64,000 nucleotides of DNA from Spartinivicinus marinus (GTDB taxonomy: Bacteria; Pseudomonadota; Gammaproteobacteria; Pseudomonadales; Zooshikellaceae): NCBI RefSeq assembly GCF_026309355.1, contig NZ_JAPJZK010000001.1, positions 4,484,501 through 4,548,500 on the forward strand. Reading direction: 5' to 3'. How positions within the stretch are numbered: position 1 is the stretch's first letter; the number at the start of each line of letters is the position of its first letter. The notes beneath the pieces were generated by a model that was not told the origin of the DNA, did not search any database, and saw only the letters and a list, made by a program, of their open reading frames with translations. A program made the position numbers and the translations under genes. Positions 52,841-64,000 of the stretch are shown here, piece by piece.

Positions 52841-53267
52841 AGAGAGGTATCCCTGGTTTACCTGAAGGCTCATCTGCTTGCACAGAGGCCGTAATCATTA
52901 GAGGTGCCCTAAATAGAGAATAGATGAACAAAAGCTAGGAATAAACAAGTAGTTGACACATAAATATACGCCATGAAAAGGGTATAAGCTAACAATGTTG
53001 CATCAACGATGAGTTGTAAAGGCGGTTGTATCAAATCAAGGCCTTTATACTACAAGAAGCAAAGATAACGACATTGTAGCATTAATTACGACAGTAGCAG
53101 TTGATTAAATTATAAAATACAGCAACACTATAACTATTTTATCGGAATTATACGAAGGCCATCTAATATTATGGCGTTGGGTAAACTTTTACTCAGCTTT
53201 GTAAATTTATTTGTGATATCAGTGTAATGTTTAATCACAGTGGTCTTTTGTAGTAAGGAGACAGTAA
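52841..53267. other. Divergent spacer between the RND and pgs operons
   Basis: A 427-bp AT-rich region that should contain promoters for both operons. It holds TGTGAT and ATCACA arms near 53212-53239, but they are 16 bp apart, wider than a CRP site. No other clear motif is seen. Confidence 0.35.
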
Positions 53268-55313
53268 ATGAAGAGTGAATGGCTAATCCTATTATTTATA
53301 ATTGCTGAGTCAGTTAGTGCTAGTCATTTAATTTCGGGAAAAATTATTAATGAACAGGGAGAGGGCATTCAAAGTAAGGTCCAGGTGAATGATTACTTCT
53401 TGGAAACATCAAAAAATGGAAAATATAGCGCGACAGTGCCAGTAAATAGTATATATAAAGTACTAGTTTCAGCTAAAGGCTACTATCCCTCGCTACACTA
53501 TTTCTCTAAAACTGATATTTCAAAAGGAACAATACCTGATATTGAGCTGGTTGCTCGTAAAAAGGGGAGAGCACTACTGCTATTTACAGGAGATGTGATG
53601 ATGGGAAGACGCTTTTTAACCCCTGCGGACCCTGGAACGGCAATAATACACTCTACAGCTGCTTATGAAGACAGTAAGAAAATTTTATCTACTATTAAAC
53701 CCTATTTAGAAATAGCTGATTATACCAGTGTTAACCTGGAGTCACCCATAATAAAGAATGAGCCTGAAATAAAAAGTATTAAGCCTTATACCTTTTATAG
53801 TCGGCCAGAAAGTTTAAAAGCATTGAAGTGGGCAGGCGTTGATTTTGTTAACCTTGGTAATAATCATATTTATGACTATTTGGATATCGGCTTAACAAGT
53901 ACCCTGGAAGCCATTAATAAACTCTCGTTTGACTATGTAGGGGCTGGGTTAAATGATAAGTTGGCACTATCACCTAAATATTTAGATATAAACAAACAGA
54001 ATTTTGCATTTACAGGATTTGTGGGGTGGCCAGGAAAAGTCACCCCAAATCAAGTAGCTTCTTTTGATAAAGGAGGGGCTGCTTGGGGCAATGAAAACAA
54101 TATAGTCGATACATTTAGAAAGTTAGCTGATCATCAAGGCCCTTCCATTATTCAATACCATGGTAGTCGTGAATATGGTGAGAACCCTGATGAGAGTACG
54201 AAATTACGATTACAATTAGCGATTGATCAAGGAGCTGATTTAGCTATTGGTCATCATCCTCATGTTATTCAAGGGTTTGACCTATATAAAGGGAAACTAG
54301 TAGCCTATTCATTAGGGAATTTTATTTTTGATCAGTATCATTATGGTACCCAGGCGTCTATGATTTTGTATGTGTGGATGGATGGAGAGTCATTTCATCG
54401 AGCTGAAGTTGTTCCTATTTATATTGATAAATATCAGCCTAAGCCAGCAATATCTGATATTAACCACTATGTGCTGAATCGAGTAAGATATTTGTCTGCA
54501 GTTAATGAAGTGTATATTTATAAATCGGGGGCTCATGGAGTGATTACAGCCAGACAAGATGAACTGATTACGACAGTATCAAAACGCACCATACAAAATA
54601 ACAATGGTAGCCACCTTTTCTTAAGATTTTCTAAAGAAACTGATGGGCTTACATACCTTAGTCAATTGTCTTCAGCTGGAGTAATGCAGGTTAATCAAGG
54701 TAATATTTTATTGCCTTTGGATAGCTTTGAATGGATTGATCATGATAAATCCACTCAAAATCATTGGAAGGCCATTGATGGAGACCTTATTATTTCACCA
54801 CAAGCAGCTAAACATGGACAGTTTGGTATCGTTGTCAAATCTAATCAACCTCAAATACAGCTGATACGGAAAGTAAGAATTTATAAGGATAATGGCAGTA
54901 TTTCGTTGAATGCTTGGGTAAAGCCACAACATTCAGGGAAGCTACAATTTTCCATTGATTACGATGAGATGAATGGTACTGTAGTTAAGGAAAGAAAGAG
55001 GCAAACCCTATCTTCCGTAGGGATAAAGGCAAATCAGTGGCAACAAGTGTCATTTGAATTTAATCCACCAGCGTATAAAAATCGAGGTTTTTCGGCTAAC
55101 CTTAGTTTTTTTCCAGAATCAAATGAGTCAATAACTGAAATGATGTTAGACGATATTTATTTTACTAATTGGATAAAAAATGAATACATAGGCCATGATA
55201 TTCTCTTAGAGACTGGCAGCTCTTATATAGACACTATTAAGCTATTATCGTTAAAAACGCCAAATAAAATAAATGCAGTTTATAAGACAATTAAGAGAAG
55301 ATATACTATGTGA
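53268..55313 (+). CDS. pgsA: Poly-gamma-glutamate synthesis protein PgsA/CapA, with extra domains
   Basis: A 681-residue exported protein with a strong ribosome-binding site (AAGGAG, nine bases before the ATG) and a signal peptide to about residue 19. Residues 20-95 form a carboxypeptidase-regulatory-like beta domain. The CapA metallophosphatase-fold domain spans about 102-400, with GDVMMGRRF (108-116), NLGNNHIYD (196-204) and GHHPHVIQGF (328-337). The C-terminal ~250 residues add a beta-sandwich (carbohydrate-binding-like), which makes it longer than the usual 350-400 residue CapA. PgsA acts in export or tethering of poly-gamma-glutamate. It is first in the pgsA-B-C-W operon. Confidence 0.88.
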   Translation: MKSEWLILLFIIAESVSASHLISGKIINEQGEGIQSKVQVNDYFLETSKNGKYSATVPVNSIYKVLVSAKGYYPSLHYFSKTDISKGTIPDIELVARKKGRALLLFTGDVMMGRRFLTPADPGTAIIHSTAAYEDSKKILSTIKPYLEIADYTSVNLESPIIKNEPEIKSIKPYTFYSRPESLKALKWAGVDFVNLGNNHIYDYLDIGLTSTLEAINKLSFDYVGAGLNDKLALSPKYLDINKQNFAFTGFVGWPGKVTPNQVASFDKGGAAWGNENNIVDTFRKLADHQGPSIIQYHGSREYGENPDESTKLRLQLAIDQGADLAIGHHPHVIQGFDLYKGKLVAYSLGNFIFDQYHYGTQASMILYVWMDGESFHRAEVVPIYIDKYQPKPAISDINHYVLNRVRYLSAVNEVYIYKSGAHGVITARQDELITTVSKRTIQNNNGSHLFLRFSKETDGLTYLSQLSSAGVMQVNQGNILLPLDSFEWIDHDKSTQNHWKAIDGDLIISPQAAKHGQFGIVVKSNQPQIQLIRKVRIYKDNGSISLNAWVKPQHSGKLQFSIDYDEMNGTVVKERKRQTLSSVGIKANQWQQVSFEFNPPAYKNRGFSANLSFFPESNESITEMMLDDIYFTNWIKNEYIGHDILLETGSSYIDTIKLLSLKTPNKINAVYKTIKRRYTM

Positions 55314-55383
55314 CTTAGTTGGGTAAATGACCTTATGTTGTAGATGAATTCTTAACAGAGTAACGAATAGTTGAGCTTTGTAA

Positions 55384-56604
55384 ATGGATATTATCGTTAT
55401 AATGATATTATTGCTTTTTCTTATTGCTATCACTTATCTGGAGCGACGAAAGCATAATCGTTATCTTCAAAGTATTCCTATTCGAATTCATATCAATGGT
55501 ACCCGAGGTAAGTCATCGGTAGCTCGATTGATTGCTGCGGGATTACGTCAGGCGGGCTTGAAAACATTATGTAAAACAACTGGCTCAGAAGCGAAGCTCG
55601 TGTTAGGGAATAAAGATGAGATTACGATTAAAAGGGGCTGTATTCCAAATATAATTGAGCAGTGTAAAGTAGTTGAGTTTGCAGAAAGCTATCGAGCAGA
55701 TGTATTAATAGTAGAGTGTATGGCATTAAAGCCTGAGTTGCAGGCTTATTCTGAGCTTTCATTAGTTAAGTCAACCCATGGGGTAATTACCAATAGTGGT
55801 CCTGATCATTTGGATGTGATGGGGCCAACAGAACGAGATGTGGCAAAAGCATTAGCGGGTACAGTACCTGTTAACGGAAAGCTGTATACCAATGAGAAAA
55901 AATATTTAAATATATTTAAAAAGGCAGCAGCTGACCGTAACTCTCAGCTAGTTGCACTTATTGCTTCAAATAGTATTAGTTCTGCAGATATGAATGGCTT
56001 CAGCTATATAGAACATCAAGAGAATGTAGCGCTGGCATTGAGTGTGTGTCGAGATTTAGGAGTGGATCGCCAAACGGCTTTACAGGGAATGTGGCAGTCA
56101 ACGCCTGATCTAGGCGCAATGGATATTAAACAGTTAACCTGGCAAGAAACACAATTAATTTTAGTGAATGCTTTTGCTGCAAATGATCCATTATCTTCTA
56201 AGCTTTGTTGGGAACAGGCTTTAGAACGACTAGTAGATAATAGTCATAAAATTATGCTGGTTAACTGTCGTGCAGATCGTCGAGAGCGCTCTATCCAGCT
56301 TGGTAAAATGTGCGCTTCGCTGACTGATATAGATAAACTGTTTGTATTGGGAACTGGTAGGCAGGCATTTATCAAAACGGCTATGCAACATGGGGTAGCA
56401 GCTGAATTGATTGAGGTACCTATTGATCAAACATCTAAGTCACTAGTAGAACAATTTACCCTGTTAGGTGGGCACAAGTTGTTAGTGGTGGGGATTGGTA
56501 ATATTAAAGGGGTTGCAGCTGATTTATTAGCTTTTTTTTCTCGCCGGTCTTCTTCTTCTTCATCTTCTAATATTGTCGACGTTCTAGAGGTTAATTTTGG
56601 TTAG
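55384..56604 (+). CDS. pgsB: Poly-gamma-glutamate synthase PgsB/CapB (Mur-ligase-like)
   Basis: A 406-residue enzyme with an N-terminal helix (residues 2-19) and a Mur-ligase-like ATP domain. The P-loop is HINGTRGKSSVARL (G39 to S44). EMuch of the middle follows CapB: VIVECMALKPELQ, GVITNSGPDHLDVMGPT and LVNAFAANDP. It links glutamate through the gamma-carboxylate, using ATP, at the inner membrane. It is 70 bp after pgsA and one base before pgsC. The length matches the family. A Ser-rich tract (SRRSSSSSSSN) near the C-terminus is unusual. Confidence 0.92.
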   Translation: MDIIVIMILLLFLIAITYLERRKHNRYLQSIPIRIHINGTRGKSSVARLIAAGLRQAGLKTLCKTTGSEAKLVLGNKDEITIKRGCIPNIIEQCKVVEFAESYRADVLIVECMALKPELQAYSELSLVKSTHGVITNSGPDHLDVMGPTERDVAKALAGTVPVNGKLYTNEKKYLNIFKKAAADRNSQLVALIASNSISSADMNGFSYIEHQENVALALSVCRDLGVDRQTALQGMWQSTPDLGAMDIKQLTWQETQLILVNAFAANDPLSSKLCWEQALERLVDNSHKIMLVNCRADRRERSIQLGKMCASLTDIDKLFVLGTGRQAFIKTAMQHGVAAELIEVPIDQTSKSLVEQFTLLGGHKLLVVGIGNIKGVAADLLAFFSRRSSSSSSSNIVDVLEVNFG

Positions 56605-56605
56605 T

Positions 56606-57070
56606 ATGTTAACGATATCCATTGGGGTAGGGTTAGTTGTTGGTCTGCTATTTATTGAGTTATTTTCATTATTTTGTGGTGGCGTTATTGTTCCAGGCTA
56701 CATCGCTTTACATTTACATAATCCTTTCAGTGTATTGATTACTTTAATAATTAGTATCTTTACTTATATGCTGGTTAAAGCACTTTCCATATTTGTGATG
56801 TTATATGGTCGCCGACAATATGTTGCTATGCTATTGGTTGCTTTTTTATTAGGCGGGATATTTGAGCATGTCGCATCAGTGAATTTTGTTGGAGATCAGT
56901 TACCATTTGTATTACCTGGAAGTAATAATGATATTTTTGGTGTTATTGGATATGTTATTCCTGGTTTAGTGGCTAATTGGTATGAGCGGCAAGGGGTTGT
57001 TACTACGATTTGCACTGTTATCACTGGCTCAATTTTAGTCAGGCTTGTTCTATTAGCTATTGGTAATTAA
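56606..57070 (+). CDS. pgsC: Poly-gamma-glutamate system membrane protein PgsC/CapC
   Basis: A membrane protein of about 154 residues and 4-5 helices, including the family signature FCGGVIVPGYIALHLHNP and a C-terminal FGVIGYVIPGLVANWYERQG block. A TTG frame from 56597 is possible, but the ATG at 56606 starts one base after the pgsB stop. PgsC forms the synthase membrane complex with PgsB. The length is typical. The next gene starts 7 bp later. Confidence 0.92.
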   Translation: MLTISIGVGLVVGLLFIELFSLFCGGVIVPGYIALHLHNPFSVLITLIISIFTYMLVKALSIFVMLYGRRQYVAMLLVAFLLGGIFEHVASVNFVGDQLPFVLPGSNNDIFGVIGYVIPGLVANWYERQGVVTTICTVITGSILVRLVLLAIGN

Positions 57071-57077
57071 AGGTATA

Positions 57078-58166
57078 ATGAAATCTATCTATCGGCGCCC
57101 GTATCAAATTCATACTGTAGCTCTATTATTAGTGACATTACTAGCCGTTGTTACTCTTTATATTGTCGAGTGGCGATTGCTAGTGAATTATAAAATAGAA
57201 ATGAAGCAAGCTGTTGAGCTGGCTAAGCAAGGAAGTAATCTGATAAAAAAGGAAAAACAACGATTAGGATTAATGGCACCAATTAATGTTGACCTGAAAC
57301 AAACAGGATTAATTGGTACATGGGAGTCAACTCCGATAACCTCTATTTTTGGTCATCTAAGTGCAAAACAAGCTTCTTTAAATCCAGATATAACATTATT
57401 AATATATCGGTGGTTGAAAGAGATAGGTGTTGAAAAAGGTGACTATGTGGCTATTAGTGCAACCGGTTCATTTCCTGCATTAAACTTGTATACTTATGCA
57501 GCATTACAAACAATTGGTGCAAAACCACTAATAATGCTGAGTTTAACTGCATCACAGTGGGGAGCCAATCAGCCAGAAATGTTATGGATTGATATGGGGT
57601 CGTTACTTTATAAAGCAGGATTAATTAACTTTATACCAATGGCTGTATCTTATGGTGCAAAAAATGACCTAGCTATAAACCTTTCGCCACAAGGTATACA
57701 GCTATTGCAAAAAGCAATTCAACGTAATAACAACCCTTCACTTATATATACAGGTTCGCTTGATGGAAATATTGAAGAAAAGTGGCTGCGTTTCAATGCA
57801 GCTGCTGGAGATAAGCCAATAAAAGCATTTATTAATATTGGTGGTGGGAAAGCCTCTGTTGGTTCAATTAATGATAAAAAAAAGCTGTTTAAACCAGGCT
57901 TAAATCGCTCACTTTCTGATGAGTCATCACCTGAAATCACTTCATTGATGTGGAAGTTTATTAGTACAAAGGTACCAGTGATTCACTTGTCAAATATTGA
58001 GAAAATAATTGCAAAAAATCAACTGACTGCTCTCAGTACACATCATCTCTATCAGGATAATTTTTATCAACGGCTATTTGCAGTAATAGGATTTATTGTT
58101 ATTGTGTTTTCATTATTAATAGCAGCTAATCACTTTAAAAGAAAACAGCAAGTGGATGTCTTGTAG
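57078..58166 (+). CDS. pgsW: Poly-gamma-glutamate system protein PgsW-like
   Basis: A protein of about 362 residues. It starts at the ATG at 57078 with AAAGG upstream. One N-terminal helix (HTVALLLVTLLAVVTLYIVEW) and one C-terminal helix (LFAVIGFIVIVFSLLIAA) frame a periplasmic domain with VEKGDYVAISATGSFPALN and KAFINIGGGKASVGS. This matches the poly-gamma-glutamate system protein of TIGR04332, which is seen next to pgsBCA outside Firmicutes. It replaces the small PgsE of Bacillus. Its activity is unknown. It is the last gene of the operon. Confidence 0.87.
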   Translation: MKSIYRRPYQIHTVALLLVTLLAVVTLYIVEWRLLVNYKIEMKQAVELAKQGSNLIKKEKQRLGLMAPINVDLKQTGLIGTWESTPITSIFGHLSAKQASLNPDITLLIYRWLKEIGVEKGDYVAISATGSFPALNLYTYAALQTIGAKPLIMLSLTASQWGANQPEMLWIDMGSLLYKAGLINFIPMAVSYGAKNDLAINLSPQGIQLLQKAIQRNNNPSLIYTGSLDGNIEEKWLRFNAAAGDKPIKAFINIGGGKASVGSINDKKKLFKPGLNRSLSDESSPEITSLMWKFISTKVPVIHLSNIEKIIAKNQLTALSTHHLYQDNFYQRLFAVIGFIVIVFSLLIAANHFKRKQQVDVL

Positions 58167-58173
58167 TTAATTG

Positions 58174-58220
58174 GAGGGTGTCGCAAAACTACTGCGCTTT
58201 TGACCTTTTGCAACATCCTC
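58174..58220. terminator. 15-bp imperfect inverted repeat between convergent genes
   Basis: GAGGGTGTCGCAAAA and TTTTGCAACATCCTC form a 15-bp stem with two wobble pairs and a 17-base loop. It lies 8 bp after pgsW and about 40 bp before the sulfatase end. It may be a bidirectional terminator or a dispersed palindrome; the sequence resembles ends of some insertion elements. Confidence 0.5.
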
Positions 58221-58261
58221 GTTGTGGCGTAAGACAAAAAAACTCTAAGTAACTATTGAGG

Positions 58262-60395
58262 TTAGGCCATTTCTTTGTCAGCTTTTACCTTTTTCTGCTT
58301 TGAGGCTTGTTTGGATGGGTCCGGTGAAGTCTGTGTGGGTGCAGTCCAACCGTTTAACCACTCAAATTCTAAAGATTCCAGTAGGGTAAGCATGGCGTTT
58401 GCTTGATCTACTACAGTTGTCCTGCTACCAAATTCCTCAGGTACTGTTTCAATGACATTAAAGTTAGGGTCATTTACATCCAGTAAATTAACTTCCTCGG
58501 CTGGATCAATATTGAGATTGTAGAGTTCAAATTGTTGAGGCTCAAAAACAGCATCATCAATTAGCCACGCTGGATCCCAGTAGCGGACTAGTTTCCAATT
58601 ATCATTACTGACTGCACAATGCACTAGATTGGGTTGCCTGACTGACCCAGAACCTAGCGTTTCTGCTAGATTAGGTTGCTGTGCTTTAAGCTTGGCAATT
58701 GCTTCAACGAAAACACTATAGGGATTTAGATTTCCATCTTTGTCAGTGATGGGTGGTGGGTTATCACCATCGTAAACGACTTTTTTGAATGGCTCTGTGA
58801 TGGTATCGTAAGTGACAAACAATACCCCTTCACGTGGCTGGTCACTATTTGGTTTATTAATATCACCTAGTCTTTGAATGGCCTGACTAAAATCTGAACC
58901 TACTGGCATGGCTGTGTTGTCTGTAATATGCCCAGAAATTTTTGCTAACAGTTCTTGCTGTTGTTCGGTGGTGTTGATGCCTGTTAATCCGAGAATCGAT
59001 GGCAATATGTCTGCATGGCTCGTCGCTTGCTCAAATTGTTGCAAGCCGCCTTCAACACGGTAATAATTTTCTGGGAAACGCACCACCAAGGGTACATGTA
59101 TCATTTCTTCATAGCCAGTATGCCATTTTTCCATCATCATGTGGTGAGAGCCACTATATTCACCGTGATCTGGACAAAATATAACAATCGTATTTTCTGC
59201 TTGCCCACTGGCTTCCAGCTCAGTAAGCACAGTATGGATATGTTGATCTACATGATGTAATAGAAAGCCATAATATTGAATAAAAGCAGAAGTGGTGAGA
59301 TAAGGGTTCGAAGTAAGCGCAAAGGGCAGTCCTAACATATCTGCATTTAGGGTAAGATTAGCGGCAGAATCTAGCCTCTCTTCTGGGGCTGTTGCATTGC
59401 CAAGTGAAGAGTCTGTAACACTTTGTGCTGTGAGGGAATTAAATGCCAGCCCTATTTTGTAGGAATAATCGAACTGGCAACCAGGTTTATTATTATTAAC
59501 AAGATCTTCATTCCAGGTTGCCATTGTCGTCGCATTGTCTTGAGGAAAATTGAACGGATTAAGCGGAAGTTCGATAGTACCCCCTTGTACCCCCTTCAGG
59601 GATTTTTGCATTAGTGTCCTGCGATGGCACGGCCAACGCCAAAGGTTCACTAGAAATCACCTGATCACAGGCTTGCTGTGGAACACCAGGGTATAGGCCA
59701 ATGTCGTGAGGGTTATTAAAAGATACGACAGTAAACCAAGGGTTCTGAACTTTCGCACTTGTATCTGGGTCTTCCTCTTGCACAACCGCTTGAATATAGG
59801 GAACACCTAATCCCATGCGGCGAAAAAAAGTACGTGATAAATCAGCAAATTGGAAGTCGCGGTAGTAGCCTAAATTATTATAAAGCCCGCCGTAGGGCTC
59901 TGGGTAACTCCATTCCCAGTTAGAAAATCCATACTCTTCCAATGAGTCGAGTGATTCATTAGAAATATGCCATTTTCCGATATAATGCGTGTTGTAGTCG
60001 TTTGCCCTCATCCAGTCACCAATTGTCGGGTATCCTGTTGGGTCCAACCAAGGATAGTTTTTACTAGAGCCATCTTTAAATATACCGTCTGTGTATTTAA
60101 CCTCGGTTTTGTTAGGGTATTGGCCAGTAAACAAAGCCGCTCGACTGGGAACACAGGCAGAAGAAGAAATACGATGTTGGTTAAGTACCACGGCATTATT
60201 ACGCAGGGCCATTAATCCTGGGAAAAAATCTTTAAAGGTATTATCTTCCCCTAGATTATCTTGAAAACCAATAATTGACTTAAGTTCTTGGTTAAAACCA
60301 CCCTCTTTTCCCAGCATGGGAAAACGCATTTGGTCTACCATGATCAAAAGAATATTTGGTCTGTTTTCGCTTTTTATTTTTTTTGAATCCGACAT
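58262..60395 (-). pseudogene. Sulfatase gene broken by a 10-bp tandem duplication
   Basis: Two frames that together make one sulfatase. The 5' frame (60395-59559) starts MSDSKKIKSENRPNILLIM and holds the formylglycine motif CVPSR (Cys81), and GKWHI further on. The 3' frame (to 58262) holds FCPDHGEYSG, the typical aspartate/histidine metal region, and ends in a Lys-rich tail. They join in KIPEGGTIELPLNP. GTACCCCCTT is present twice in tandem (59577-59586, 59587-59596), and removing one copy restores one ~700-residue frame. As read, the protein would stop soon after the duplication and lose half the active site. An assembly error or phase-variation must be considered. No sulfatase-maturing enzyme is nearby. 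Confidence 0.85.
59577..59596. repeat. 10-bp tandem duplication causing a frameshift
   Basis: GTACCCCCTT occurs twice without a gap inside the sulfatase gene. A 10-bp insertion shifts the frame by one. One copy alone gives an open reading frame that continues smoothly into the 3' part. Confidence 0.95.
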
Positions 60396-60978
60396 GTAAA
60401 GTACTCATTTTTTTATAATTAGTTAAAGTGTACTATTAAATCCGTATTAATAATTGTCAGTATAAACTCCAAGTTAATTAGGTGTTACAGTAAACCTAAT
60501 CGTTGGGCTGCCCAATTTTAAAATACAGTAAAGCTCACAGTTCCATGTGCAAATTTAGGGTAGAAAATAATTAAAAGCAAATAATAGAGTATAGTTTATG
60601 TGCAATGACTGCTTACTAAGACATGAACCTGTGATGTATTGATTTGCTATTTGACTGTTAATGAAACAAGAATTGCCATAAATATAAATGGTTGATATTA
60701 ATAAAAGTTAAAAAATAATTAACTGTTTGGCAATTGGCTCTATTATGCGCAAAGAGTATACCTGCACTCAGTGCTGTTGGTGTTCTATGTGCTTCAACAT
60801 GTCTTCAAGGCCAGAGACTGTAAACAATGATTAGAGGTGTATTTAAGTAATAACTTACTTCACTAAATATTACATTTTAAATATAGGATTTAGTGTACAT
60901 AAGGTGTATAAAGCTATAGTAGTTTAACATATACTCTTCATGTATGAATATAGTGCTAAGAATGGAGGCTTAAATCCA
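60396..60978. other. 583-bp AT-rich spacer
   Basis: No gene is evident. An 8-bp inverted repeat (CACTAAAT and ATTTAGTG, near 60858-60894) may be an operator or leader element for the small-protein gene that follows. A frame open from ATG 60940 would add 13 residues to that gene, but GGAGG at 60963-60968 favours the later start. Confidence 0.4.
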
Positions 60979-61356
60979 ATGAATAACAGCCAGTCAGTGT
61001 TTGGTAATGAAATAGAGCTTGATGGTGTGTTGTATGTGTCTGTGAACTTTCTAAAGCAATATCCTGAATATTTAGATAATGAATTTAATAACGCTGTTGA
61101 TGTAGCCAATGATAGGGTGGTAGATATAGAAGATGGAATGCCAGAAGAAGGTGACGACTCACCCAGTGTCCATAAAAGTGAGGTTGTATTGAATGGTACG
61201 ACTTACCTAGCCGCACCTATTTTACGGACTAACCCTAATTATGTGGAATTAAAGTATAATCAACAGGTAGAAGTTGCTTTACCACAATTTATTCCCAATA
61301 ATGTACTTGATGAAAGTAAAGCGGCAATTTCATTCTATCGTCGCCGATCCATCTAA
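60979..61356 (+). CDS. Small duplicated-motif protein next to cupin oxygenases
   Basis: A protein of about 125 residues. I use the ATG at 60979 because GGAGG lies 10 bases upstream. It contains two copies of one motif: EIELDGVLYVSVNFLKQYPE (near residues 11-30), then NEFNNAVDVA; and EVVLNGTTYLAAPILRTNPN (near 68-87), then LKYNQQVEVAL. The shared pattern is E-[IV]-x-L-[DN]-G-x-x-Y, then L-[KR]-x-x-P, then Y-[LV], then N-x-x-V-[DE]-V-A. An acidic linker (VVDIEDGMPEEGDDSP) joins them. There is no Cys, signal peptide or membrane helix, and the end is basic (FYRRRSI). I do not recognise a family. Three cupin_8 genes follow on the same strand, so it may be their substrate or partner. Confidence 0.75.
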   Translation: MNNSQSVFGNEIELDGVLYVSVNFLKQYPEYLDNEFNNAVDVANDRVVDIEDGMPEEGDDSPSVHKSEVVLNGTTYLAAPILRTNPNYVELKYNQQVEVALPQFIPNNVLDESKAAISFYRRRSI

Positions 61357-61394
61357 TCTAGAAGCAAGCCTACTCTTTCATAAGCTATAGGTTG

Positions 61395-61447
61395 AAGTAC
61401 GCTACTAAAGGCTATCTATTTAGTAGTGTACTTAATAAAGTACACTA
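61395..61447 (+). promoter_or_regulatory. Two mutually exclusive hairpins in the leader of the cupin genes
   Basis: AAGTACGCTACTAAA (61395-61409) can pair with TTTAGTAGTGTACTT (61419-61433) over 15 bp with one G:U. The right arm's TAGTGTACTT can pair instead with AAGTACACTA (61438-61447) over 10 bp. Only one can form at a time, as in attenuators. No T-run follows, so a protein-binding or RNA-stability role is possible too. Confidence 0.45.
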
Positions 61448-61460
61448 TCCTGATTAACTA

Positions 61461-61487
61461 TATACCCTTCATAAATAACTTTTAGAG
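61461..61487. repeat. Degenerate half of the MITE-like end
   Basis: TATACCCTTCATAAATAACT followed by TTTAGAG matches the left end of the element at 46569 at about 20 of 27 positions. Only one end is visible. It lies 30 bp before the first cupin gene. Weak on its own. Confidence 0.3.
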
Positions 61488-61516
61488 GATGCCATTAATG
61501 ATTTGGAAGAACTAAC

Positions 61517-62602
61517 ATGCAGTATAAGGATATTGCTGAGTTTGACACCATCACTGCCGATGAGTTTTATGAAAACTTCTTTCTAAAAAATACACCATGT
61601 GTAGTTCGCGAAGGGGTCACTCACTGGCAAGCAGTGAAAGTGTGGGAGGATGACAATTACTTATGCCAAATAGCGGGTAATCGCCAAGTGTTTCAGACCA
61701 CTTCCGTACGCTCTGACCTAGGCTTTGATCATCAATCGCCAATCATTCAAGTACGCTTTGCAGACTTCTTAGACTCTTACCAAGAAAATCCCCGTCTTTA
61801 TGTAAATGACTCCAACATGCCTTCTATTTTAGTACAAGACTTGGGCACTCACTCAATGTTGGAAGGATTTAAAAAAGTCGAGCCTAATGTAAAGCGAGTG
61901 GGAATGTTTATGGGGGCAGGGGAGCAGCTGGCACCACTCCATTATGATGATGAAGAAAATATTTACATATTGATTAATGGTCAAAAAGAGTTTTTATTAT
62001 TTGATATTGCTGACTTCAATAGCTTGTATCCTTATGATGATACAAAAGCACCTGATTTTTCTGCAGTCAATCTAGATAATATTGACTACGATCAGTTTCC
62101 TGCATTAAAAACAATAACATGTTATCGAGTAAAGCTTAACGCAGGGGATATGTTATTTGTTCCAGGGTATTGGTGGCATGCAGTCAAAGCCCTTGGACGT
62201 TCCATTGCATTATCATGGGTACGGTTGGATCGACGGGGGCAGTTCATGGCATTTGCAAAGCTTGCTCGTAATAATGTGTTTCCTATGGATAAAAGTCGTT
62301 TGGAAAATATATTGGATAACCCAACTGAAACGATTGTTAACACAAGGGCTGAACTAGGTACTGACTCTATTTTAGAACATAATTTGTTTGAGACCTATCT
62401 TAGACTAAGCTTTTTGTACTTTCATGCTAGCCAACATAACGAAGATGTCACTCCAATAGAACGAGAATTTAAGCGCTTACGCCAAACTGTATTTAATACT
62501 TTACGTGAAAATAAAAATAACTATAGTTATCCTGTTTTGTTTTTAATGCAAAACTTTTTCCGTATAAATCTTGGTTTATTCAATTTAAATGAAGCTAACT
62601 AA
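61517..62602 (+). CDS. Cupin_8/JmjC-like Fe(II)/2OG oxygenase 1
   Basis: A 361-residue protein of the cupin-like JmjC group. The iron ligands are His142 and Asp144 in APLHYDDEEN and His221 in VPGYWWHAV. The Lys of NGQKEFLLFDIADF (near 157) could bind 2OG. The N-terminal block PCVVREGVTHWQAVKVW is typical of HSPBAP1/tyw5-like and FIH-like proteins, which hydroxylate residues in proteins or peptides. The start has no strong ribosome-binding site. Its stop overlaps the start of the next paralogue by 14 bp, so the genes are coupled. The substrate is unknown; the small duplicated protein upstream is a candidate. Confidence 0.88.
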   Translation: MQYKDIAEFDTITADEFYENFFLKNTPCVVREGVTHWQAVKVWEDDNYLCQIAGNRQVFQTTSVRSDLGFDHQSPIIQVRFADFLDSYQENPRLYVNDSNMPSILVQDLGTHSMLEGFKKVEPNVKRVGMFMGAGEQLAPLHYDDEENIYILINGQKEFLLFDIADFNSLYPYDDTKAPDFSAVNLDNIDYDQFPALKTITCYRVKLNAGDMLFVPGYWWHAVKALGRSIALSWVRLDRRGQFMAFAKLARNNVFPMDKSRLENILDNPTETIVNTRAELGTDSILEHNLFETYLRLSFLYFHASQHNEDVTPIEREFKRLRQTVFNTLRENKNNYSYPVLFLMQNFFRINLGLFNLNEAN

Positions 62603-63557
62603 AATACCTATTGCAGTAGATGAAGTAAATGATATTTTGCCTGCAGAATTTAAAAGCTGTTATGTAGATAGACATCGACCATTGATTATTCGTGGAGGTG
62701 TGAAACACTGGTCAGCCATGCAATGGAGCAGTGATGAATATTTGCTGAAAATAGCAGGTGATCAGAGAGTAAAAGTAGATGTTTTTCCTTTGTCTGAACA
62801 GGGGGAAATATTATTAGAATCTGGTAATGAGGCAGTAATGTCAATTAAAGACTTTACTATAAAATTTTTTCAAGAAACCCACGGTTACTATATTTTAGAT
62901 CAAAATCTACCTCCACCGCTTTACCAAGACCTAAATGAGCACTGTGTTTCCTCAGTATTTCCTGTTGAAAGGCGACGGACATTTTGGTGGGGAAAAAGTG
63001 GTCAAAGATCCTTCCTGCACTATGACGATAATGAAAACTTGATGTGTCAGTTTGATGGAGAAAAAGAGTTTTTATTATTCGATATTACAGATTTCAACTA
63101 TTTATACCCAAAAGATACAATAGATTATCGCTCTTTAGTGAACTTGGAACAGTACGAGCTAAGCCAATTTCCGTATTTGGCAAAAGCTACTCCTTATGTA
63201 GCGCGTATTAGAGCAGGAGACATACTCTATGTGCCTTGTTATTGGTGGCATCAAGTGAAGTCTTATGGCCGTAATATCGCTGTTTCTTACATTATTAATG
63301 AGTCTATGGAGCAGAGGGTACGAGTAACAGGTAGGTTAATTGAAGCAGGGATATTGCCAGTATCAGATTCAATTCGAGATGACCTTCTGAATATTATTGC
63401 ACTGGATGAAACCCCTTCCCGACGAAATGCATTACTAAAGAAATATCATAGAGAATACCAGCAGCAACAAGGTAAATCCTACTATCCTCATAGTCTTTTC
63501 CATCGCTTAATTGAAGAAAATTTATTTGATATCCTTTATGGGCATGCTACTTACTGA
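62589..63557 (+). CDS. Cupin_8/JmjC-like Fe(II)/2OG oxygenase 2
   Basis: A 322-residue paralogue of the preceding protein. The N-terminal block is PLIIRGGVKHWSAMQW. The iron ligands are His144 and Asp146 in SFLHYDDNEN and His221 in VPCYWWHQV. The conserved EKEFLLFDITDFNYLYP block matches the first copy (QKEFLLFDIADFNSLYP). It overlaps its predecessor by 14 bp, and a third copy starts 23 bp after its end. All metal ligands are intact, so it is likely active. The C-terminal ~100 residues are helical, as in dimeric JmjC hydroxylases. Confidence 0.88.
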   Translation: MKLTKIPIAVDEVNDILPAEFKSCYVDRHRPLIIRGGVKHWSAMQWSSDEYLLKIAGDQRVKVDVFPLSEQGEILLESGNEAVMSIKDFTIKFFQETHGYYILDQNLPPPLYQDLNEHCVSSVFPVERRRTFWWGKSGQRSFLHYDDNENLMCQFDGEKEFLLFDITDFNYLYPKDTIDYRSLVNLEQYELSQFPYLAKATPYVARIRAGDILYVPCYWWHQVKSYGRNIAVSYIINESMEQRVRVTGRLIEAGILPVSDSIRDDLLNIIALDETPSRRNALLKKYHREYQQQQGKSYYPHSLFHRLIEENLFDILYGHATY

Positions 63558-63580
63558 GCTCACAATAGGGAGTTATATTT

Positions 63581-64000
63581 GTGCTAAGAGTCAGTGAATT
63601 AAATATTAAGGGAAGTAAGCTGAAACCTATCGATAGTATTAAAAATATTTCAGTGAGTGCATTTAATCGAGATTATGTCGCTCAAAATCGCCCATTATTA
63701 ATAAAAGGAGGTATTGCTTATTGGGATGCGCTGTCATTGTGGGATAATGAATACTTAAATAGAAATGCTGGTCATAATGTAGTAGATGTAGAGACATCCC
63801 GCGATCAATTTGAAGGAAATTTATTTGATGATGCAGAAAAAGTATGGATGCCCTTTTCCCGCTTTCTTGAGCGTTTAACATTATCAGAAGGGGAGACGGA
63901 CTATTTTGTAGGGAGCTGGTTATTTCCTACGCTTGTTGCTGATGCACCAGATATTCCTACCTTTAAAGCATTCAGCATGCCTATAAAGCGTGGGATGATT
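63581..64000 (+). CDS. Cupin_8/JmjC-like oxygenase 3 (3' end beyond window)
   Basis: The first 140 codons of a third paralogue, starting at a GTG (63581) with AGGGAG seven or eight bases upstream. The N-terminal block PLLIKGGIAYWDALSLWDNEY matches in order the REGVTHW and RGGVKHW blocks of copies 1 and 2 (shown here as PLLIKGGIAYWDALSLW). The iron ligands would lie past the window end, so activity cannot be judged. It is 23 bp after copy 2, so it is in the same operon. Confidence 0.85.
   Translation, partial: MLRVSELNIKGSKLKPIDSIKNISVSAFNRDYVAQNRPLLIKGGIAYWDALSLWDNEYLNRNAGHNVVDVETSRDQFEGNLFDDAEKVWMPFSRFLERLTLSEGETDYFVGSWLFPTLVADAPDIPTFKAFSMPIKRGMI

Follow-up and report, generated by a model that had tools for sequence, protein, structure and literature searches.

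A rare cassette linking five JmjC/Cupin_8 oxygenase domains to a conserved two-repeat small protein: a candidate protein-oxidation pathway in distantly related bacteria

At the end of a 64,000-nucleotide stretch of the Spartinivicinus marinus genome (hereafter the window; contig C1, positions 4484501-4548500, within a 6.88-Mb genome), a gene for a small protein built from two copies of one motif is followed by genes for Fe(II)/2-oxoglutarate (2OG) oxygenases of the Cupin_8/JmjC type, with five such domains in all. This cassette looks like a rare pathway for oxidizing its own ribosomally made protein or peptide, because the same cassette recurs in distantly related bacteria. It is considered somewhat probable that it specifies an oxidation pathway resembling those of ribosomally synthesized and post-translationally modified peptides (RiPPs), with the small protein as the hydroxylation substrate of JMJD5/FIH-type enzymes. 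The sequence-only reading of the window, on which this study builds, is confirmed and extended: its genomic predictions are borne out, and the chemistry stands as a prediction. Five loci carry the cassette, namely, those of the window genome (L002, where a position equals the window position minus 55500), a sister species (L005), Moorena (Cyanobacteriota; L043 and L044), and a metagenome-assembled genome (MAG; L045).

The small gene lies at 60979..61356 on the forward strand and encodes the proposed substrate or precursor, a protein of 125 residues recognized by its open reading frame (ORF), translation, repeat test, homologues, and ratio of nonsynonymous to synonymous substitution rates (dN/dS). 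The ATG at 60979, with GGAGG upstream, is the probable start; the longest version of the ORF starts at 60940 and would give 138 residues. An ungapped alignment of 38 residues between the N- and C-terminal halves scores 69, while 5,000 shuffles reached no more than 46, and this, together with the acidic linker EDGMPEEGDD, confirms the two motif copies and linker noticed earlier. Repeat 1 (61009..61071, forward strand, residues 11-31; core motif EIELDGVLYVSVNFLKQYPEY) and repeat 2 (61180..61242, forward strand, residues 68-88; core motif EVVLNGTTYLAAPILRTNPNY) are each defined by the repeat test, the homologue alignment, and a pattern scan. The residues common to both repeats and to six homologues read E-x3-[DN]-G-x2-Y-x5-L-x3-P-[EN]-Y, a pattern that was restricted to small-protein genes among 159 fetched, partly overlapping sequences; a repeat at the DNA level was also looked for in the gene, and none was reported. 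With a dN/dS of 0.07 against the sister species, below the 0.10-0.21 of the cassette enzymes (rough figures, as dS is ~1), the small protein appears to be under strong constraint. Searches of Pfam and NCBIfam gave no significant match to it (best E 0.11 in each), nor did the PDB (best E 0.34), and PADLOC and PHROGs returned nothing at E 0.01. An AlphaFold2 model from five sequences had a mean predicted local distance difference test score (pLDDT) of 42 and was too poor to serve as evidence, including the short hairpin that it placed at each repeat.

Three adjacent cupin genes follow on the forward strand, two of them overlapping, as had been described. Cupin 1 (61517..62602; 361 residues; Pfam E 8e-42; nearest PDB entries FIH and JMJD5) overlaps cupin 2 (62589..63557; 322 residues; Pfam E 3e-39; nearest PDB entry JMJD5, E 1e-22) by 14 bases. 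Cupin 3 (Pfam E 2e-43; nearest PDB entry JMJD5) has 315 residues, the first 140 of which are encoded in the window (63581..64000) and the remainder within L002:8081-9028. The prediction that the operon continues past 64000 proved correct: 29 bases beyond cupin 3 comes the ATG of a fourth enzyme gene on the same strand (L002:9058-10803), whose 581-residue product contains two Cupin_8 domains and is nearest to JMJD6 and JMJD5 in the PDB. All four cassette enzymes exceed the Cupin_8 profile cut-off, and the five matches of a whole-genome PF13621 search all fall inside this cassette. The HxD...H ligands reported for the two complete cupins are present, and cupin 3, complete in the genome, keeps them too; together with the 2OG-binding Lys, they are retained in 26 of 26 Cupin_8 domains across the five loci, including the five of the window cassette.

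Among solved structures, cupins 1-3 are closest to JMJD5, JMJD7, FIH, and C2orf60/TYW5. JMJD5, JMJD7, FIH, and JMJD6 are protein hydroxylases, and C2orf60/TYW5 is a tRNA enzyme. The last of these leaves some room for the view that the cupins tailor a tRNA, a small molecule, or a product of nonribosomal peptide synthetases (NRPS) or polyketide synthases (PKS), with the small protein as a helper or an unrelated passenger, and Cupin_8 relatives do occur in NRPS/PKS clusters. One such relative, related to the double enzyme, is a one-domain cupin hydroxylase among PKS/NRPS genes on plasmid pn1 of Nostoc sp. UHCC 0926 (L141:12164-12802). At the five cassette loci, however, no NRPS/PKS gene was found next to the cassette among the listed ORFs (judged by eye, with Pfam on part of them), and the small gene is kept at all five loci, each time as the first gene of the unit; tailoring of this kind is regarded as improbable. 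Bacterial JmjC/Cupin_8 enzymes are common, and to our knowledge few have a known substrate. Generic relatives abound: 22 of 369 genomes of the class, the window's own included, match cupin 3 at E 1e-10. When two-domain cupins were sought elsewhere, 16 of 273 cyanobacteria matched the profile, 15 along a single domain and the cassette-bearing genome G751 along both.

The small protein, in contrast to these generic cupins, is rare. Cupin relatives were collected by a pattern scan with a cupin alignment, with one genome per species and the best 80 of 270 relatives kept. Within these best 80, three (L043, L044, and L045) share 56-57% identity with cupin 2, while the other 77 share 22-36%, and it is just these three that have the small protein. 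Compared with the window copy, the small protein of the sister species is 88% identical, those of Moorena 59-61%, and that of the MAG 51%. Within the window's family, two of five genomes have the small protein, and profile searches recovered it from one of 398 genomes of the phylum sample (the window's own), one of 386 genomes of the Moorena phylum (G751), and one of 282 genomes of the MAG's phylum (G752). Each of the three samples also gave two weak profile hits (E 0.005-0.06). Those of the window's phylum (L041 and L042; E ~0.06) disappeared with a six-sequence profile, which gives nothing there at E 1, and those in the 386 and 282 genomes cover short or patchy parts of longer ORFs; all were judged to be chance. 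Plasmids searched for the small protein gave no match, and the pattern matches on viral contigs (4 and 52) included no relative of it.

Wherever the small protein was found (six copies at five loci), it adjoins the same four enzyme types. The expectation that homologues always lie beside cupin_8 genes thus holds for six of six copies, with no convincing stray in a test that covers profile searches of a genome sample (the 398, 386, and 282 genomes) and the best 80 of the 270 cupin loci. The expected variation in repeat number was not found: there are always two repeats per protein, and it is the gene copy number that varies, L043 having two copies in tandem. Moorena and the window's genus agree in gene order: first the small protein, then cupins 1, 2, and 3, and last the double cupin. 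At the MAG locus, the cupin 2 type is represented by two genes, accompanied by cupin 1, cupin 3, and the double gene. All five loci have kept every enzyme type and every catalytic residue. Given a constant core that comprises the small protein plus five hydroxylase domains, the most economical explanation would be that the former is the substrate shared by the latter.

For the outgroup of a cupin tree, 11 generic cupin loci were tried and nine were kept by length (L053 and L097 were left out). In the resulting tree, bootstrap values are 100 for the cupin 1 clade, 98 for cupin 2, 97 for cupin 3, and 99 for the N-terminal half of the double enzyme, and cupins 1, 2, and 3 group together against the nine generic cupins with 95/92 support. 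From the single-domain clades and their grouping it follows that the single-domain enzymes arose by duplication before the lineages now holding the cassette parted, and that these paralogues have been kept side by side since.

Additional genes accompany the cassette at some loci. An HExxH protein of 454-457 residues lies beside it at three of the five (L043, L044, and L045), and its C-terminal part matches ulilysin, an M43 metzincin, at E 4e-5 in a profile search. The HExxHxxxxxH motif is intact in the metallopeptidases of L043 and L045. The first ~300 residues match nothing, and no Pfam family is found at E 0.04 or better; NCBIfam, consulted for an alpha-ketoglutarate-dependent HExxH peptide hydroxylase, gives nothing at E 0.1 or better. 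A ulilysin-like metallopeptidase was detected in one of 259 sampled cyanobacteria, namely, the cassette-bearing G751. Between L043 and L044, the dN/dS of the metallopeptidase is 0.44, above the values of the cassette genes. The AlphaFold2 model of the Moorena HExxH protein (three sequences) had a mean pLDDT of 37 and was too poor for use. As for transport, Moorena has a convergent ATP-binding cassette (ABC) transporter that is nearest to MsbA models, and the MAG has two ABC transporters for which TIGR01194 (cyclic peptide export) is the best and second-best match, at 261 and 252 bits. The suggestion that the cassette might contain a protease or a transporter thus holds for the Moorena and MAG loci, but not for the window's own copy, where no protease or transporter gene directly follows the two-domain cupin. 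The core does not include peptidase or exporter, which accompany it at some loci.

In the proposed mechanism, the cassette would be a self-contained pathway of protein or peptide oxidation with the 125-residue protein as its ribosomally made substrate, a role suggested by the linkage. Its two repeats, and perhaps the Arg-rich tail, would be bound by the five JmjC/Cupin_8 Fe(II)/2OG domains and hydroxylated on side chains, the repeats acting as docking and modification units of the shared substrate. The three single enzymes and the two-domain enzyme may have arisen by duplication followed by specialization for different sites. At the Moorena and MAG loci, the product would then be trimmed by the ulilysin-like metallopeptidase and exported by the ABC transporters; in the window's host, trimming and export may be absent, may be carried out by unlinked genes, or may not be needed. 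The order of the steps, the processing, the export, and the biological role are put forward on the same presumptive footing. A more far-reaching proposal, namely, a new class of ribosomal product with a conserved two-repeat precursor that undergoes ordered hydroxylations by five specialized paralogous JmjC domains only, encoded by a cassette that moves as a unit among cyanobacteria, gammaproteobacteria, and a third lineage, is made tentatively and falls short of being probable.

Several observations weigh against an oxidation pathway of this kind. The sampled loci are few, and four of the five are two pairs of close relatives. The tree was flagged by the program for long branches, and its clade for the C-terminal half of the double enzyme is weak (79/75). 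Pfam called no RiPP recognition element (RRE) or PqqD domain in the cassette proteins. At L044 (L044:9075-10448), the metallopeptidase reads HDLGH where L043 reads HELGH, so that the Glu of the motif is replaced by Asp; none of the five genomes of the window's family yielded the metallopeptidase in a search that had no positive control, and no cassette-specific protease or exporter was found for the window's own copy. The transporters of Moorena and the MAG are of different types, and the two TIGR01194 scores fall under the 286-bit cut-off. Lastly, the small protein is conserved from end to end, with 52 invariant columns in six sequences. Usual RiPP precursors have a variable core. Here the acidic linker is the variable stretch, and a layout of leader plus variable core is absent from the six-sequence alignment. 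The earlier idea of a RiPP-like precursor therefore stands in part: the small gene is kept beside modifying enzymes at five of five loci, but there is no variable core, and the fit to a RiPP is only partial because the whole length is conserved.

Full-length conservation therefore leaves room for another role, in which the small protein would be an adaptor or scaffold whose repeats bind the cupins and present another host protein or the ribosome to them. Two repeats conserved along with the rest of the chain would suit a binding protein, the lack of a cassette-specific protease or exporter in the window's genus would be expected, and other proteins of the cell are the targets of JMJD5, FIH, and JMJD6, to which the cupins are related. 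Nevertheless, the tandem small genes of L043 and the metallopeptidase linked at three of five loci are easier to explain by processing of the small protein, and a housekeeping target would be less expected for a rare accessory cassette. A scaffold is accordingly rated as rather unlikely, and the small protein as substrate is preferred.

Between the small gene and cupin 1 of the window lies a hairpin (61395..61433, forward strand) with a 15-pair stem that was reached by none of 500 shuffles. The sister species has a 14-pair hairpin in the same place with unlike sequence, again reached in 0 of 500 shuffles. Folding z-scores for this pair of species are modest (-1.7 and -1.4), the hairpin is without a terminator-like T tail, and at the Moorena loci no hairpin was significant in the shuffle test. 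Such a hairpin could raise the ratio of substrate to enzyme.

The genomic setting of the cassette in its genus is that of an accessory element. A block that begins at 60845, a short way before the small gene, and finishes close to where the double cupin gene ends aligns with the sister species. The two genes that flank the cassette were also located in another, third species of the genus; there they are separated by ~470 bases that contain no cassette DNA, a clean empty site at the cassette position. More broadly, 52859-64000 of the window and beyond (also represented by L005 and L140) is a variable insertion site between a resistance-nodulation-division (RND)-type pump operon and a P0006-family gene: G002 is empty there, G001 holds the cassette and a flavin adenine dinucleotide (FAD) oxidoreductase, and the window genome holds capsule genes, a sulfatase, and the cassette. 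A defence or toxin-antitoxin island, with oxidation switching the activity of the small protein, would also suit an accessory site of this kind, which holds different genes in different sister species. Yet PADLOC has no model that matches the small protein or the four enzymes, the PHROGs matches of the cupins are entries of unknown function only, and viral contigs gave no small-protein relative, and such an island is thought very improbable.

Other genes at this site were considered as parts of the system and rejected. P0006 (L002:11298-11909) encodes an orphan of 203 residues with no Pfam or NCBIfam match, lies outside the cassette, and has a dN/dS of 0.03 against the sister species (rough, with dS ~1); it has 3-5 matching places in each of the five family genomes, including one without the cassette at the site, and was rejected as an operon member. 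The FAD-dependent oxidoreductase-like gene (L005:13259-14386; DAO match below cut-off) adjoins the cassette in the sister species only and, with no copy in L002, L043, L044, or L045 (best E 0.02), was rejected as a core part. The RND-type pump (named by eye) was rejected as the exporter of the sister cassette, as it occupies the same place in a species without the cassette. Upstream in the window, 52860-60844 is unmatched in the stretches fetched from the other two species of the genus. It includes poly-gamma-glutamate-capsule-like genes on the forward strand (53268-58166; PGA_cap, a Mur-ligase middle domain, CapC, and a 368-residue protein without a Pfam match) and, on the reverse strand (58262-60395), a sulfatase spread over two overlapping ORFs that correspond to the N- and C-terminal parts of PF00884, which looks like either a disrupted gene or two genes.

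The linkage ties five domains to one small protein in distant bacteria, so that the question of their substrate becomes testable. If the proposed pathway is correct, it would yield both a RiPP-like class of product and a collection of side-chain hydroxylases that are relatives of human JMJD5/FIH. Genome mining based on families would miss the precursor because it has no significant Pfam or NCBIfam match.

The closest known counterparts on the RiPP side are the biphenomycin-type clusters (pbs, bpm, and bip). There, a JmjC/cupin-type enzyme likewise hydroxylates a ribosomal precursor: PbsQ and BpmG are ornithine hydroxylases that work on a RiPP precursor (PMC12257519), and BipG hydroxylates ornithine at the gamma position (PMC12707348). 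In those clusters, the product is set free by a metalloprotease (PMC12257519, PMC12707348); a metallopeptidase lies beside this cassette at three of five loci. There are also differences. The biphenomycin-type clusters have a single JmjC enzyme that is accessory to a multinuclear non-haem iron-dependent oxidative enzyme (MNIO), an arginase, and a B12-radical-S-adenosylmethionine (SAM) enzyme, whereas five JmjC domains are the sole modifying enzymes seen here; by Pfam, the cassette enzymes match cupin/JmjC-type families only, with no MNIO, B12-radical-SAM, or arginase partner. Their core is short and of the FRF type, while inspection of the translation showed no FRF motif in the conserved two-repeat protein. 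Their protease is of the TldD type, in contrast to the ulilysin-like peptidase, which is not present at all loci; moreover, only the C-terminal part of the Moorena and MAG HExxH protein resembles ulilysin, and no such protein was found in the window's genome. What is a single accessory step in the cited RiPP work would here be the whole modification chemistry, if the proposal is true. Bacterial JmjC homologues have been noted in RiPP-like contexts in a paper on RREs (PMC12710340), and among the matches listed in open PubMed Central papers there was no set of five JmjC domains as sole modifying enzymes, nor this cassette. On the enzyme side, the cassette cupins share HxD...H plus Lys with JMJD5, JMJD7, FIH, and JMJD6. 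For JMJD5, residue roles and Arg C3-hydroxylation are described in PMC9712658, and the spacing of 15 from H to Lys in the cassette cupins is the same as for JMJD5 H321/K336 in that source. By the alignment obtained, human-type JmjC hydroxylases are ~25-30% related at best, and, unlike them, the cassette enzymes are clustered in bacteria with a dedicated small protein.

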